Shown here one piece after another: positions 14,561-58,716 of a stretch of 64,000 nucleotides of DNA (its first letter is position 1; every line of letters begins with the position of its first letter). The stretch is from Deltaproteobacteria bacterium (GTDB taxonomy: Bacteria; Desulfobacterota; GWC2-55-46): positions 112,367 to 176,366 of the forward strand of contig JACPGB010000047.1 of NCBI GenBank assembly GCA_016182655.1. Reading direction: 5' to 3'. The translations under genes were made by a program, and so were the position numbers. Under the pieces are notes generated by a model. That model was not told the origin of the DNA. It did not search any database and saw nothing but the letters and a program-made list of their open reading frames with translations.

Positions 14561-14836
14561 AATCCTTTGCGGGTTCAGGCTTGCAACCTGAACCCAAATA
14601 ATTTTGTAACCCGACTTACGCCTGCATCTGTTATCCGAACCTTTTGCAAAAACCTTATTGCGCGTCAGCGTACACATGTGGCTTTACCCAGCGTACTGTG
14701 CCTTTTTCTTTTTTGCCCTGCCGGGCTTTTTTTCGGCATGGGGCTTCACTCCCTGCTCCTCCCCCTCCCATTCGCTCGCCCCTTAGGGCGCTCCGCGCCT
14801 TTTTACTTCCCCGGCTCGCTCATAAGGCTTCCTCCC
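14561..14836. other. Non-coding stretch with odd composition next to ubiG
   Basis: I see no gene here. The stretch 14737-14858 is bounded by GGCATGGGG and CCCCATGCC, an inverted repeat about 120 bp apart whose right arm runs into the last codons of ubiG. Between the arms the plus strand is almost purely pyrimidine-rich and contains a small palindrome (GGGGCGAGCG type). It could be a further repeat family. Read on the minus strand it continues the ubiG tail. Confidence 0.4.
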
Positions 14837-15616: not shown

Positions 15617-15671
15617 TTATTCTCTTATCAGCGTCCTGATTATTTTTTCCTGCCTACTTTCAGGGTGGGAT

Positions 15672-15720
15672 GAAAATTTCACCCTCCCCTCAATCCCCTC
15701 CCGTCAAGGGAGGGGAAGTT
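15672..15720. repeat. Short palindromic repeat between ubiD and ubiG
   Basis: The core CCCCTCCCGTCAAGGGAGGGG is flanked by CACCCTCCCCTCAA, the same type as the group at 14428-14560. It separates ubiD from ubiG. Confidence 0.65.
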
Positions 15721-15744
15721 TAAAGACAAATGCTGTGGAATAAT

Positions 15745-22043: not shown

Positions 22044-22159
22044 GACTTGTTTTCAGGCTACCTCTAAAAATTAGGAATTTTTTCTGAGGTCAAGGAAGGG
22101 CGGAAATAAAAAGCGGAGCATATATGTTAATATGTGAGCACTTTTATTTCCGACCTGAC

Positions 22160-22250
22160 GCCGTCCTGCCGGACGGGCAAATCCGTATCAAACGGCTGGA
22201 GAATTGATGCACCCAAAGGCTCCTTAGAGACTTTGGCCCTGCGCCGAGCA
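22160..22250 (-). repeat. 91-bp inverted-arm element, single copy
   Basis: Read on the minus strand it runs from TGCTCGGCGCAGGGCCAAAG to GATACGGATTTGCCCGTCC plus GGCAGGACGGC. The immediate flanks are CCTGAC and GTCAGG, complementary to each other, so the element sits within an inverted repeat. The length equals that of the copy at 58477-58567. The rest of 22044-22282 shows no gene. Confidence 0.75.
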
Positions 22251-22282
22251 GTCAGGAAAAATAACAATTTTTAGAGTAGCCT

Positions 22283-29040: not shown

Positions 29041-29221
29041 GTAATGAAGAACCCCGCAGCAAGCTGCGGGGTATCCTTCTTATACTTCCCCTCCCTCGAT
29101 GGGAGGGGAGTGAGGGGAGGGTGAAATCGTTGTCACCCCCACCCTAACCCTCCCCCATCAAGGGGGAGGGGATTAAAAACGCGGCAAGCCGCGGGGTATT
29201 AGACCCTAAGAGAGTAATAAA
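29041..29221 (+). repeat. 180-bp hairpin-ended element, copy A
   Basis: It begins with hairpin CCCCGCAGCAAGCTGCGGGG, continues through CTCCCTCGATGGGAGGGG and a GGGTGA...TCACCC palindrome, and ends with GCGGCAAGCCGCGGGGTATT and CCCTAAGAGAG. Nearly the same order recurs at 51644-51821 and 58403-58655. All three begin within 60 bases after a plus-strand stop codon, here that of bactofilin. Confidence 0.8.
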
Positions 29222-29402: not shown

Positions 29403-29421
29403 CGATACCGTCAAATGGGTT

Positions 29422-29513
29422 TGTTTGGCGCAGGGCCAATGTTCAAACCCTAGCTCTTAAGGTAGATTCAAGCATAGTCATTCGATACGAACTTTGCCCG
29501 TCCGGCCAGGACC
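29422..29513 (+). repeat. 91-bp inverted-arm element, single copy before the ClC gene
   Basis: It runs from TGTTTGGCGCAGGGCCAATG to CGATACGAACTTTGCCCG and TCCGGCCAGGAC. The right arm leads straight into CCGGCGAGGAC before the ATG at 29524, so the repeat edge lies at the ribosome-binding site of the ClC gene. Confidence 0.78.
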
Positions 29514-31610: not shown

Positions 31611-31737
31611 TTATAAAAAGGTGCTTGCGCACGCTAATGCTCAAATCGAAATTTTTTGAGTAGGTAAAGGAATAGCCGAGCGATACGATTTCGCCAGTCC
31701 GGGACGGACCTCTCAAACTCTCTCCAAAAATTTTAGA
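31611..31737. repeat. GAGAGAACC-type palindrome interrupted by a 91-bp-family element
   Basis: GAGAGAACCTTTTTATAAAAAGGT (31609-31622) starts a palindrome like those near 45135 and 63673, but its right arm is broken. The expected continuation TCTCAAACTCTCTCCAAAAA resumes at 31711. The 88 bp between begin TGCTTGCGCACGCTAATGC and end GATACGATTTCGCCAGTCCG, a divergent copy of the inverted-arm element (31621-31708). Confidence 0.6.
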
Positions 31738-35451: not shown

Positions 35452-35782
35452 GCAAAGCGGATCGGGCCGCGCAACCCGGCCTCTATAAGACGATTTGAAC
35501 TTCGGCCCCGCGCCGAGCGGGTGCTCGCCGCACAGGCAAATCCGTATCGAAGCGGCTGTGCCTTGGCACCCTTAACGACTCGATTTGAACTTTGGCCCCG
35601 CGCCAAGCGGGTGCTCGCCGCACGGGCAAAGCGGATCGGGCCGCTCTGTGCAACCCCGCCTCTGTAAGACGATTTGAACTTTGGCCCCGCGCCGAGCGGG
35701 TGCTCGCCGCACAGGCAAACCCGTATCAATGCGGCTGTGCCTCGGTGGTCTTGAGCGGCTCGATTTGAAATCGACCCAGCGA
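35452..35782 (-). repeat. Tandem array of 84-90-bp inverted-arm units (3.8 copies)
   Basis: Units start at 35452, 35536, 35626 and 35715, each opening GCAAA followed by GCGGATC, TCCGTATC or CCCGTATC. The junctions CGATTTGAACTTTGGCCCC...GAGCGGGTGCTC...GGCAAATCCGTATCG form about 60-bp imperfect palindromes. Units differ mainly in their centres. The array ends at the typA stop codon. The rest of 35285-35451 shows no gene, only a short GAAAGGCGGTTGAAAAAGC inverted repeat. Confidence 0.88.
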
Positions 35783-37597
35783 CTAGCTGTCCCTGTTCTT
35801 CTGCTTCGGCCTTTTTCCGGCTTCCAGCACCTTTTTCCTGAGCCTTATGGACTGGGGCGTTACCTCGACGAGCTCGTCCTCTATTATGAACTCGAGCGCC
35901 TGCTCAAGGTTCATGATATTGGGGGGGAATAGAAACATCGTCTCATCGGACCCCGAGGCGCGCATGTTCGTGAGCTTCTTCTCCTTTACCGCGTTCACGT
36001 CCATGTCGTTTTCTCTGGCGTTTTCGCCGATTATCATCCCCTCGTAGACCGGGGTGTTCTCCTTCACATGGAGGGTGCCGCGGGGCTGGAGATGGAAGAG
36101 GGCGTATACGTTAGTGACGCCGGTCCTGTCGGCGACGAGCGCGCCTGCCTGGCGCTTCGATATGGGCCCGCACCAGGGCTCGTACCCTTCGAAGAGGTGA
36201 TTAAGGAGGCCGGTGCCGCGCGTGTCGGTCAGGAACTGGGACCTGAAGCCTATGAGCCCCCTCGAAGGTATGCGGAACTCGAGCCTGACCCTGCCGTGGC
36301 CGTTGTTCTGCATTTTCAGCATCTTGCCCTTCCTCATGCCTACCTGCTGGGTGACGACGCCTATGAAGTCCTCGGGGACGTCTATGACGAGGAGCTCGAC
36401 GGGCTCATGCAGCTTGCCGTCTATGGTCTTTGTGATCGTCTCAGGCATCGCGACGGAGAGCTCGTAACCCTCTCTCCTCATCATCTCTATGAGGATCGCG
36501 AGCTGGAGCTCGCCCCTGCCCATGACCTTGAACTGGTAGGCCTTCTCAAACTCCACCTTGATGGAGACGTTGTAGAGGAGCTCCTTCTCAAGGCGCTCCC
36601 GGAGGTTCCTGGAGGTTACGAACTTGCCCTCTTTCCCGGCAAAAGGCGAGGTGTTGGGAGAAAACACCATCGATATCGTCGGCTCGTCTACCTTTATCCT
36701 CGGCAGCTCCTTCGGGTTCTCGGCGTCGGTTATGGTGTCCCCGATGCCTATGCCTTCGAGGCCCGCAAGGGCTACGATGTCGCCCGCCGAGGCCTCCTTG
36801 GAGTCCGCACGCTCAAGACCCTGGAAGACATACTGGGCGGTTACCTTTGTCTTTATAAGCTTTCCCTCGGCGTTGATGAAGGCGACGGAGTCGCCGTAGC
36901 GGATGGTGCCGGAGAAGATCCTCCCGATGGCGAGCCTTCCGACATAGTCGTTGTAGTCGATGTTGGTGACGAGGATCTGCAATACCGCGGAGGGGTCTCC
37001 TACCGGCGGCGGTATGGTCTTTACGATAAGCTCGAAGAGGGGTTTCAAGTCCGGGGAGTCGGCGTCAAGGTCGACGGTGGCCGTCCCCTTCCTCGCGTTC
37101 GTGTAGACGATAGGGAAGTCGAGCTGGTCTTCGTGGGCGTCGAGGTCGATGAACAAGTCGTATATCTCGTTCAAGACTTCCTTTATACGTGCGTCCGGCC
37201 TGTCTATCTTGTTTATTATGATAAGGGGCGTGAGCTTGAGTTCAAGGGCCTTACGGAGCACGAACCTCGTCTGTGGCAGAGGGCCCTCGGAGGCGTCCAC
37301 GAGGAGGAGCACGCCGTCGACCATCTTCAAGGTGCGCTCGACCTCTCCGCCGAAGTCGGCGTGACCCGGGGTGTCTACTATGTTTATCTTGACCCCGTTA
37401 AACTCGACCGCGGTGTTCTTGGCCATGATGGTTATGCCGCGCTCTCTCTCGAGGTCTATGTTGTCCATGACGCGGTCTACGACGCGCTCGTTAGTGCGGA
37501 AGATGCCCGCCTGCTTGAGCATCGCGTCAACGAGGGTCGTCTTTCCGTGGTCGACGTGGGCTATTATCGCGATATTCCTTATGTCCTTCGGGTTCAT
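35783..37597 (-). CDS. typA: Ribosome-associated GTPase TypA/BipA
   Basis: This translational GTPase of the EF-G class has 604 residues. G1 [15 protein letters not shown], the switch [13 protein letters not shown]3 [16 protein letters not shown] and G4 NKIDRPDAR are intact. TypA-specific features are [21 protein letters not shown] and the C-terminal [22 protein letters not shown] 37597 has AAGGAGC about 8 bases upstream. The antisense strand contains a 519-residue open frame, which is a codon-bias artefact. Confidence 0.97.
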
Positions 37598-42302: not shown

Positions 42303-43523
42303 CTACTCGACCTCGACGGGCGTGGGCGAGTCTATCCCTGTGCCGTCGCCGAGCTGGCCGTAGGTGTTGAGGCCCCAGCACTTCGCGCTCGCGTTCGATA
42401 TGCGCGCGCACGAATGGAAGAGCCCGGCATCCAGCGCAGTCGCGTTCGTCACCCCTGAGGCCGATACCGGAACTATCGTCGAAGTCGAGGACCCGCCTAT
42501 GCCCGGGGATGTGAAGGCGATGTTAGAACCGTTCCCGAGCTGTCCGAAGGCGTTCTCGCCCCAGCAACGGACCCTCCCGTCCGCGATGATGGCGCAGGTG
42601 TGGTCCCCGCCTGCGGCGACCGCCGTCGCCGTGGTTATAGAGGACGATGCCGCTACGACCGGGGTAGATGAGATGGTGATGTTCACAAGAGGGCTTAAGG
42701 TAATAAGCGTCCAGGAGACCCCGAGCTGTCCGCTCGTGTTGTCCCCCCAACACTTGATCGTGCCGTTTGAAATGACGGCGCATGTGTGGTTCGCGCCTGC
42801 TGAGACCTGAGTGGAACCTGTGAGGTCCTGGACGGCCACGGGCGCGTTGGTGTTGGTGATGGTCCCATTCCCGAGCTGTCCGAAGGCGTTCTCGCCCCAG
42901 CAACGCACCGTGCCGTCAATAAGATGCGCGCAGGTATGGTTGCCGCCGGCCGAAACCGTCTCGGCACTGGTTATAGACGAGACCTGTACGGGTATCGACG
43001 AATTCGTGGTCGTGGAATTACCAAGCTGGCCCGACGAGTTCGACCCCCAGCAAAAGACTGTGCCGTCTTCAAGGACCGCGCAGGTGTGGTCGCCCCCGGC
43101 AGAGACCGAGACCGCGTTCGCTACACCTATTGGCGTAACCGGGGTAGTCGAGCTCGAATTCGACGCGTTCCCGAGCTGTCCGCTCGAATTATCTCCCCAG
43201 CACCGGAGCGTGCCGTCCGATGATCTCGCGCAGGTGTGCCCACCTCCTCCGGTCATCTCGGCTACACTTGAGAGCCCCGTCACCTCCACCGGCACGAGGG
43301 ATTGTATCGGGGTAGTGTTCCCCAACTGCCCGTTATTGTTTCTCCCCCAGCACTCGGCAAGGCCGTCAGAAAGCGGAGAGCAGGAGTGCGAGTCGCCGAG
43401 GGCAATGGAAGCCGCCTTTGTCGATGTCCCGGTCTCGATGTTCGTCTGCTCTATGTCGCCGCAGGCGGCAAGAAGGCATCCAACGGCCAAGGGTACGATA
43501 AACCTCGCGAAAATAGATCTCAT
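42303..43523 (-). CDS. RCC1-repeat lipoprotein
   Basis: This exported protein of about 406 residues has a signal peptide and a lipobox (GCLLAAC, acylated Cys21). It contains seven copies of the RCC1/ATS1 repeat core CWGxNxxGQLGN at roughly 50-residue spacing, enough for a seven-bladed beta-propeller. Thr/Ser-rich loops occupy the blade edges. ATG 43523 (MRSIFARF) with GGGGG upstream is chosen over the open-frame start at 43580. Bacterial RCC1 propellers are mostly uncharacterised. Surface display is inferred from the lipobox, whose next residue is Gly followed by Asp. Confidence 0.85.
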   Translation of the reverse strand: MRSIFARFIVPLAVGCLLAACGDIEQTNIETGTSTKAASIALGDSHSCSPLSDGLAECWGRNNNGQLGNTTPIQSLVPVEVTGLSSVAEMTGGGGHTCARSSDGTLRCWGDNSSGQLGNASNSSSTTPVTPIGVANAVSVSAGGDHTCAVLEDGTVFCWGSNSSGQLGNSTTTNSSIPVQVSSITSAETVSAGGNHTCAHLIDGTVRCWGENAFGQLGNGTITNTNAPVAVQDLTGSTQVSAGANHTCAVISNGTIKCWGDNTSGQLGVSWTLITLSPLVNITISSTPVVAASSSITTATAVAAGGDHTCAIIADGRVRCWGENAFGQLGNGSNIAFTSPGIGGSSTSTIVPVSASGVTNATALDAGLFHSCARISNASAKCWGLNTYGQLGDGTGIDSPTPVEVE

Positions 43524-45134: not shown

Positions 45135-45340
45135 GAGAGAAACTTTTTATAAAAAGTTTCTCTCAGACTCTCTTCAAAAATTTTTGGTTCTTCCCGAACA
45201 GACCCCCCCAAATACATTCAAAGGCTCTTTAGCTGATTGATTATCTGCATTGCTTTAATTCGGATGGGGGGGGTCTGTTCGGGAACTAAAAGTCTTTGAA
45301 GGGGGTCTGGGGGAAAGCTTTCTACAGAAAGTTTCCCCCA
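45135..45340. repeat. 200-bp imperfect inverted repeat between convergent genes
   Basis: The left part contains GAGAAACTTTTTATAAAAAG then TTTCTCTCAGACTCTCTTC and TCCCGAACAGACCCCCC. The right part is its imperfect complement, GGGGGGTCTGTTCGGGA, GGGGGTCTGGGGGAAAGC and CAGAAAGTTTCCCCC. The inner 17-bp arms are perfect. Each arm also forms its own hairpin followed by T-rich sequence, so it may serve as a terminator pair for the two convergent genes. Confidence 0.8.
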
Positions 45341-50626: not shown

Positions 50627-50870
50627 CCGCTCGGCGCGGGGCCAATGTCCTCGGATGCTATAGAGGCAAGGGTAATCAAGCCGTCTCGATATGAGCTTTG
50701 CCCGTCCGGCGAGGACCGCTCGGGTACTCGGCGTACGGCCAGATTCAAATCGGGTGGCTTTAGGCTATCAGACAACACAGACGTTGGATACGGATATGCC
50801 CGTCCGGCTCGGGGTACTCGGCGTACGGCCAATGTCACTCGGGTCACTTCAGGCTCCATTAAGCACAGCC
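50627..50870 (+). repeat. Tandem array of inverted-arm units between divergent genes
   Basis: Unit 1 runs from CGCTCGGCGCGGGGCCAATG to TTTGCCCGTCCGGCGAGGAC. Unit 2 runs from GGGTACTCGGCGTACGGCC to CGGATATGCCCGTCCGGC. A partial third unit follows. The junctions form palindromes of the same design as at 35452. The array fills most of the gap between fhs and the YkgJ-like gene and must contain or flank their promoters. Confidence 0.8.
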
Positions 50871-50915
50871 GTCAGGTATAGAACTGCTGGACTCGTCTCG
50901 CGCTAAAAAGATATA

Positions 50916-51641: not shown

Positions 51642-51643
51642 GA

Positions 51644-51821
51644 ATGAACTACCCCGCCGCAAGCAGCGGGGTATCTTCTAATACTTCCCCTCCCTCGATG
51701 GGAGGGGACTGAGGGGAGGGTGAAATCTTTTTCACCCCCACCCCGACCCTCCCCCATCAAGGGGGAGGGGGTGAAAAAACGCGGCAAGCCGCGGGATGTT
51801 TGACTCTAAGAGAGAATAAAA
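51644..51821 (+). repeat. 180-bp hairpin-ended element, copy B
   Basis: It starts two bases after the YkgJ-like stop with CCCCGCCGCAAGCAGCGGGG and shares the layout of copies at 29041 and 58403. In the middle it keeps the uninterrupted palindrome GGGTGAAATCTTTTTCACCC. It runs directly into the terminator at 51822. Confidence 0.82.
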
Positions 51822-57410: not shown

Positions 57411-58397
57411 ATGGCTATCGGGACACCCCTTACGAAGTTTCTTCTTGAAGAGCAGAGACGCTACCCCGAGTCGACCGGCAACTTCACTTCGCTTTTCTCC
57501 GACCTCGTCCTTGCCGCCAAGATCATATCGCGCGAAGTCAACAGGGCCGGGCTTATTGACATACTCGGCTCCACGGGCAGCCAAAACGTCCAGGGCGAGG
57601 AGGTCCAGAAGCTCGACGAGCTCGCTAACGAGATGCTCATAAAGACCATGGAGCACGGCGGCCACCTCTCGGGCATGGCGTCCGAAGAGATGGAGGAGAT
57701 AGTAAAGGTGGACGGCAGGTTCCCGCGCGGCAGTTACCTCCTCCTCTTCGACCCGCTCGACGGCTCGTCCAACATAGATGTGAACATTAGCGTCGGAACG
57801 ATATTCTCGATACTCAAGTGCCCGTCCGCCGAGACGACGACAAAGGACTTCCTCCAGCCCGGGACCCGGCAGGTCTGCGCCGGATACATACTCTACGGCT
57901 CCTCCACCATGCTCGTCTACACGACAGGCCACGGCGTCCACGGCTTCACGCTCGACCCGTCGGTAGGAGAGTTCCTCCTCTCGCACGAGGACATCAGGAT
58001 CCCGGATAAGGGCAAGACCTACAGCATAAACGAGGGGAACTCGAAGCACTGGTTCCCGGCGACCTCCATGTACATAGAAAAGCTAAAGGCGAGCGAGAAG
58101 GGCTGTAGCGCGAGATACGTCGGCTCGCTCGTCGCCGACTTTCACAGGAACCTTTTGAAGGGCGGCATATTCCTCTATCCGGCCGACAAGAAGTCGAAGA
58201 ACGGCAAGCTCAGGCTCCTGTACGAAGCGAACCCGCTGTCTTTCATAGTAGAGCAGGCAGGGGGGAAGTCATCGACAGGGGACAAGAGGATACTCGAGAT
58301 AGTCCCGGAGGAGCTCCACCAGAGGACGCCGCTCATCATCGGCTCAAAGGCCGACGTCGAGGAGGCCGAGAGCTTCTGGAAGTACCAGGAGGCGTAA
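57411..58397 (+). CDS. fbp: Fructose-1,6-bisphosphatase class I
   Basis: This gluconeogenic enzyme has 328 residues. TGSQNVQGEEVQKLDELANE, the SEEMEE metal site, LLFDPLDGSSNIDVNISVGTIFSI (class I signature) and the late GGIFLYPADKKSKNGKLRLLYE are all present. AAGGAGG lies 6 bases before ATG 57411. The terminal repeat element begins 5 bases after its stop. Confidence 0.96.
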   Translation: MAIGTPLTKFLLEEQRRYPESTGNFTSLFSDLVLAAKIISREVNRAGLIDILGSTGSQNVQGEEVQKLDELANEMLIKTMEHGGHLSGMASEEMEEIVKVDGRFPRGSYLLLFDPLDGSSNIDVNISVGTIFSILKCPSAETTTKDFLQPGTRQVCAGYILYGSSTMLVYTTGHGVHGFTLDPSVGEFLLSHEDIRIPDKGKTYSINEGNSKHWFPATSMYIEKLKASEKGCSARYVGSLVADFHRNLLKGGIFLYPADKKSKNGKLRLLYEANPLSFIVEQAGGKSSTGDKRILEIVPEELHQRTPLIIGSKADVEEAESFWKYQEA

Positions 58398-58402
58398 GAT
58401 AA

Positions 58403-58655
58403 AATGAACTACCCCGCCGAAGCAGGGGTATCTTCTAATACCTCCCCTCCCTTGATGGGGACTGAGGGGAGGGTGACTGCTCGGCGCAGGGCCAAAGACA
58501 CCCGGAGCCCCACTGGATAACATGAGCCCCGGATGTTGGTTACGGATTTGCCCGCCCGGCCAGGGCTTCACCCCCACCCCGGCCCTCCCCCATCAAGGGG
58601 GAGGGGATTAAAAACGCGGCAAGCCGGGGGGTATTAGACCCTAAGAGAGAATAAA
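58403..58655 (+). repeat. 180-bp hairpin-ended element, copy C, with nested insertion
   Basis: It has the same order as copies at 29041 and 51644: ACTACCCCGCCGAAGCAGGG, then CTCCCCTCCC and GGGTGA, ending AAAAACGCGGCAAGCCGGGG and CCCTAAGAGAGAATAAA. Between GGGTGA and TCACCC, where copy B has only AATCTTTT, 91 bp of another repeat family are inserted. A weak AAAGAGGCGGG/CCCGCCTTTCTTT hairpin follows at 58665-58697. Confidence 0.85.
58477..58567 (+). repeat. 91-bp inverted-arm element nested in copy C
   Basis: It runs from CTGCTCGGCGCAGGGCCAAAG to TACGGATTTGCCCGCCCGG plus CCAGGGCT. Comparison with copies A and B of the host element defines both ends to within a few bases, and the length is the same as the copy at 22160-22250. 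Confidence 0.88.
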
Positions 58656-58716
58656 GAACTTCCGAAAGAGGCGGGCCTTAAAACCCCGCCTTTCTTTCAT
58701 GGGGGAGGGGACTACC

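Follow-up and report, generated by a model that had tools for sequence, protein, structure and literature searches.

To our knowledge, the way in which small non-coding repeats of this kind move is unsettled even for REPINs. REPINs are doublets of REP sequences that are mobilised by RAYT/TnpA-REP (PMC3116915). The BOX elements of Streptococcus pneumoniae and S. suis consist of zero to several tandem modules between fixed flanks. In S. suis, the boxA/C and boxE/F flanks enclose the same boxB module, and the number of modules varies between strains (PMC3049150). Here, we analysed a candidate mobile module, non-coding and 87–92 nt long, in a window (the whole stretch of DNA under analysis) of 64,000 nucleotides and in related genomes.

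The module stands at the apex of one copy, copy C, of a host repeat that we call H. The earlier note had placed copy C at 58403–58655 and described it as the same repeat as copies A and B except for an insert of 91 bp between GGGTGA and TCACCC. Its coordinates were confirmed exactly, and the homology holds on both sides of the insert. We looked for an alignment in which the host repeat would fail to be homologous across the junctions, and found that the arms align on both sides. The left arm of C (58403..58476, + strand, ending in GGGTGA) is 97% identical to that of B and 89% to that of A, while the right arm (58567..58655, + strand) is 95% identical to that of A and 91% to that of B; copy C is chimeric, with a B-like left arm and an A-like right arm. 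The empty copies A and B lie at 29043..29221 and 51643..51821 (both + strand). Between GGGTGA and TCACCC, A has AATCGTTG and B has AATCTTTT, whereas C has 91 bp at 58477–58567; the 8 nt of A and B form the tip of a long inverted repeat, and in C they are swapped for 90–91 bp. The module proper takes up 90 nt (58477..58566, + strand, CTGC-TCGGC-GCAG ... GCCC-GGCCA-GGGC) and matched the covariance model with 80 bits. H copies were aligned for filled and empty forms; there are dozens in the genome, many of them filled at the same apex as C. Inserts of the C type (98–100% identical) are present in at least four full-length H copies, counting C, and a fifth copy, truncated by a contig end, is 97% identical to C over the module and its flanks. 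One further H copy (L142, G000:C24:33500-34400) has just 15 nt at the apex (GCTTCGGTCAGGGCT), which resembles the module minus its middle. An inverted partial H arm lies at 15663–15723 of the window (reverse complement of 29080–29140, 84%).

Copy C lies between the end of the fructose-1,6-bisphosphatase (FBPase) gene (57411–58397) and a cation-efflux gene; its nearest neighbours are the FBPase stop codon on one side and, on the other, a hairpin that resembles a terminator (58398–58700). In G001, a terminator-like hairpin directly follows the FBPase stop codon, without H. Several H copies terminate in AATAAA immediately 5' of such hairpins.

Strains with an empty site for copy C were sought, and the locus was found in three congeners (G001, G002 and G003), but what is missing there is the whole H copy and not just the module. 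Homology to the window ends at the FBPase gene end in all three, and in G002 it restarts in the next gene. Because the insert is common to at least four H copies and the whole of H is absent from three congeners, copy C is no record of a module insertion. It cannot tell a jump of the module into H from the arrival of a filled H as a composite of about 250 bp. Alternatively, H copies could have passed the module among themselves by recombining.

Five repeats that are unrelated to one another (H, S, T, U and R) hold the module with exact ends; empty copies of each are known, and 2–7 nt of the host were replaced at every host site. A filled copy of S, which has the terminal inverted repeats CTCTAAAAATT, occupies 22062..22276 (− strand). 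The module in it (22163..22251, − strand, by covariance model) had been taken for a single copy at 22160, equal in length to the 91-bp insert; a module is indeed there, but it is nested in S and not free-standing. In a first set of 43 S copies, 24 were empty (mostly CCTGATCTCTGCGTCAGG) and 19 were filled, with the form CCTGA-[CTGC...GGAC]-TGCGTCAGG; one filled copy holds two modules. The tally for the genome under study (G000) was cut to 23 empty and 18 filled, because the empty copy L104 comes from a relative (G009) and the supposedly filled copy L041 holds an empty H instead of the module. The H copy within S at L041:1360-1680 is another nested repeat in its own right.

An empty copy of T, CCTCCC-ATT-CGCTCGCC, lies near 14773, at 14700..14820 (+ strand, left limit approximate), and an empty copy of U, AGAAAGCT-TTCC-CCCAGACC, at 45286..45340 (− strand). 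R is the TCATTGCGAGGAGCG...CGAAGCAATCTC repeat, and its empty loop is TT or similar. H has a second module site, which is in the arm and distinct from the loop. One orthologous H copy carries a GCGC module at the arm site in G002 (L209/L223), and in G000 (L049/L058) a CTGC module at the loop. A strict hairpin-tip rule for the position of the module was rejected: the module is at the palindrome tip or loop in H, S and R, but the rule breaks at T, U and the second H site. Isolated modules were also found outside the named hosts, such as that at 29421..29512 (+ strand, by covariance model). A weak, diverged module lies in a U-like palindrome at 31622..31710 (+ strand).

Two orthologous S copies, with the same genes around them, hold the module in G003 (GWB2_55_19) and lack it in G000, and 383–700 bp of flank were aligned on each side. 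The sequence is CCTGA-TCTC-TGTG (or TGCG) in G000 and CCTGA-[CTGC...GGAC]-TGCG in G003. The earlier note saw no obvious target-site duplication at copy C, and there is none at these two sites either; TCTC of the host was lost instead. The exact ends in five hosts and the orthologous S sites support the claim that the family is mobile as a unit of its own, but copy C itself, which had been offered as direct evidence, does not provide it. The missing duplication also agrees with a process that may be unlike DDE transposition.

The number of modules at a site is variable. One tandem array of three modules lies at 35521..35789 (− strand, 89–90 nt period, outermost diverged) and another at 50627..50887 (+ strand), both from the covariance model. 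The latter has three modules in G000 versus two in the orthologue of G001 (NC_groundwater_1707); other arrays have 1 versus 4 and 3 versus 5, and across orthologues the number spans 1 to 5. In H and S, zero to several modules lie between fixed flanks, as in BOX. Elsewhere in the window (42523–43252), five repeats of about 150 nt stand in a row; they are coding-like and perhaps belong to a predicted beta-propeller protein.

The covariance-model search placed modules at no fewer than 150 sites in G000. The 17-base left-end signature GCTCGGCGCNNGGCCAA gave 116 matches in the genome versus 0 for the reversed-pattern control, so its count is far above chance. At least 68 modules each were found in G001, G003 and G004, and 2 in G002; the module is abundant in four of five congeners, G000 included. 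Among the matches listed, the relatives with the module are the Deltaproteobacteria MAGs GWB2_55_19 and NC_groundwater_1706, 1707 and 1708, and the spread outside this group of MAGs, from a pattern scan of named genomes, is a lower bound. Under a stricter setting of the covariance-model search, the module was absent from 25 other genomes of the same family. The module looks genus-specific. Because H is widespread across that family and an empty S is present in G009, the host repeats look older than their guest. In G032, from another family of the same order, we found a distant module family that has the same layout, different stems and loops, and tandem arrays. Its left end is CCAC-ATGC-GTGG or CTCAC-TGC-GTGAG, its middle is GGGCAAA...TTTGCCC, and its right end is GTGC-GGCRA-GCAC. 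Examples are at L224:1290-1780, L240:1-360 and L230:1498-1591.

Each module end, read inward, is N4-TSGSC-N4'-GGSCAAA (S is C or G), and the two ends are inverted, which gives terminal inverted repeats (GGSCAAA and the hairpins) that are present but imperfect. In copy C, the left terminal hairpin P1 is at 58477..58489 and the right terminal hairpin P4 at 58554..58566 (both + strand); in each, the stem varies and the pairing is kept. The 4-bp stem of P1 was perfect in 87% of 216 modules (shuffled mean 30%, maximum 37.5%), and that of P4 in 82% (shuffled 52%), with a P4 loop length that was picked to favour pairing. These 216 modules were not selected for pairing; a figure of 99% paired comes from pairing-selected rows and is not a rate. 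Perfect P1 types include CTGC/GCAG, CCGC/GCGG, GTAC/GTAC, GCGC/GCGC, GTGC/GCAC and ACGC/GCGT, and G-T cells are scarce in P1 (1.4%). The loops TSGSC and the flanking GGSCAAA are constant while the stems are variable. When pairing between guide and cleavage site of the IS200/IS605 type was examined, the outer and inner N4 were found to covary, with the right end mirrored and host bases replaced. The folding of single modules was not more stable than that of shuffled sequences (z from +1.0 to −1.8), and the fold tends to pair both ends together. Since thermodynamic folding of single modules is thus unremarkable, covariation is what carries the case for terminal hairpins. Modules with a GTAC stem often stand directly 3' of CCGCTCGG or CCGCTCGGCG (window 50717–50814; L210, L161 and L151), which gives the impression that they entered a different module at its left hairpin or were copied from that hairpin.

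We compared the similarity of arms with that of inserts among 16 filled H copies and found no association (Mantel r = 0.00, p = 0.45). Inserts 98–100% like that of C sit in H arms that are mostly 76–91% alike, with one left arm at 99%; an H copy without an insert, L035, matches C at 99% in its left arm. The two arms of the filled H copies, left and right, were likewise uncorrelated with each other (r = 0.20, p = 0.16), and H copies therefore seem to recombine freely. On the S-arm tree, filled and empty copies are mixed (19 changes versus a shuffled mean of 21.8), and at least five changes are forced by supported branches. On the module tree, host labels cluster (23 changes versus 63 shuffled), with at least three forced changes of the H-loop label; each tree was built on few columns. 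We take these results to mean that the module truly entered different hosts several times and that, within each host family, it was then copied and exchanged extensively. Gene conversion accounts for part of the spread of the module.

Y1 transposases are encoded by three genes of the genome, all of them RAYTs (NF047646 above cut-off, NCBIfam), at L031:1369-1985, L032:1418-2033 and L033:1049-2017. Each has its own palindrome (GGCGGGACTTTCCAGTCCCGCC; GTCGGGTTACGCTCCGCTAACCCGAC; GGGTTCAGGTTACAAACCTGAACCC), unlike the module, and they are ordinary REP systems. A RAYT as the partner of the module was rejected, as all three are bordered by palindromes that differ from the module ends. A module inside an R repeat is about 135 bp away from one of the RAYTs and is regarded as a chance neighbour at such module density. 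G001, which is 85% complete, gave no Y1 match though it has many modules. No TnpA or Y1 gene bearing module ends was found in the genome. The loci searched near modules showed no recurrent family of transposase-like ORFs, and the targeted loci no convincing pair of lone ends bracketing a gene; a coding element with module ends was accordingly dismissed for the loci examined. Orientation relative to GC skew was unbiased (60 of 116 loci). The module matched no plasmid or phage, and no Rfam model matched it.

Exact ends, several hosts, filled and empty orthologues, changes in array number and covarying hairpins are direct observations. The best reading, to which we give a probability of about 0.6, is that of a REPIN-like, BOX-like, non-autonomous mobile module of 87–92 bp, specific to the genus and moved in trans. 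Such a module would insert with exact ends and take the place of 2–7 host nt, with no target duplication. The loop of a palindrome would be a frequent site (H, S and R), and other sites would be used as well (T, U and the second H site). It would multiply in four ways: growth and shrinkage of 90-nt arrays, copying of filled hosts, recombination between hosts, and fresh insertions. A trans-acting enzyme would recognise the hairpin ends, perhaps on single-stranded DNA as in REPINs and IS200/IS605. A different account is that there were a few old insertions, about one per host family, followed only by copying of filled hosts, gene conversion and recombination, the module now being immobile. Every filled S does have one common junction and the P1 stem CTGC (one TTGC), and the clustering of host labels (23 versus 63), the chimeric H copies and their uncorrelated arms fit this account as well. 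However, it still needs at least one insertion for each unrelated host (S, H loop, H arm, T, U and R), and isolated modules lie outside the named hosts; we hold it to be a serious but rather unlikely account.

A MITE of the DDE type, with terminal inverted repeats that are imperfect and a short target duplication (CTGC or CCGC) blurred by later change, would explain what is seen in S, in T and at some isolated sites, where the left N4 is repeated past the right end (GGA-CTGC, GGA-CCGC). On this ground, the left N4 was tried as a target duplication; it fits S and T but mostly fails in R and U, where modules with GTGC, GCGC or ACGC stems mostly lack the repeat. The loss of TCTC from the host at both orthologous S sites and the failure of the search to find a transposase bearing module ends also make such a MITE very improbable. 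A structured regulatory RNA or terminator element retained for its function would account for the conserved structure and for modules that adjoin genes, as C does between the FBPase and cation-efflux genes. It is scarcely credible in view of the lack of an Rfam match, folding no better than shuffles, variable stems nearly without G-U pairs, and copies in many unrelated contexts and tandem arrays. Another proposal concerns the stems and not mobility. Template switching is documented to homogenise the arms of inverted repeats (PMC8604942, PMC7202029), and the covarying 4-bp stems might be its by-product rather than a sign of recognition. The rarity of G-T intermediates (1.4% of P1 cells) is as in concerted change, but the TSGSC loops and GGSCAAA stay constant while stems vary, and the same layout with other stems recurs in the distant G032 family; we think this origin unlikely. 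One may speculate, at quite long odds, that the ends of a mobile module are read by hairpin shape and loop and not by stem sequence, with the variable stem as a guide related to the host that is entered; the enzyme would then be of a kind other than Y1/RAYT and the known DDE transposases.

The module resembles REPINs in its length of about 100 bp, two inverted hairpin ends, high copy number, lineage specificity, tandem clusters and non-autonomy, and, like them, it allows two drawings: one long hairpin, or a clover whose ends each bear a small hairpin (PMC3116915). However, it is without the GTAG/GTGG 5' tag, its ends being mostly CTGC, CCGC, GTAC, GCGC and GTGC; its stems are 4 bp and variable in sequence with constant loops; and the palindromes beside the RAYTs of the genome are different ones. 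We do not file the module as a REPIN, since we looked for both the tag and a link to a RAYT and found neither. It is likened to BOX by layout, that is, by the variable number of inner modules between fixed flanks (PMC3049150), but BOX is reported with target duplications, and our module is spread over five hosts that are unrelated, and over sites beyond them.

With IS200/IS605, the module shares a possible pairing of terminal and internal tetranucleotides and the lack of target duplication (PMC6006769). In contrast to them, its ends are mirror images, host bases are replaced, and a TnpA gene with module ends is missing. IS1397 and ISPpu9, which target REP palindromes (PMC1525189, PMC8450116), likewise insert into palindromic repeats, but they are full coding elements and not a 90-bp non-coding module. 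Inspection of the alignments showed no integron attC outer core boxes (RYYYAAC/GTTRRRY) at the module ends, and a DDE-type target duplication of fixed length is lacking at the orthologous S sites and mostly at the R and U sites. The orthologous sites give before-and-after states of a mobile unit that is among the smallest in bacteria, and the hosts in this genus look older than the guest. The constant loops with variable paired stems lead to a testable prediction on what the moving enzyme reads. As a miniature repeat the module is ordinary; it is unusual in its variable paired ends, its host range and its filled and empty orthologues.
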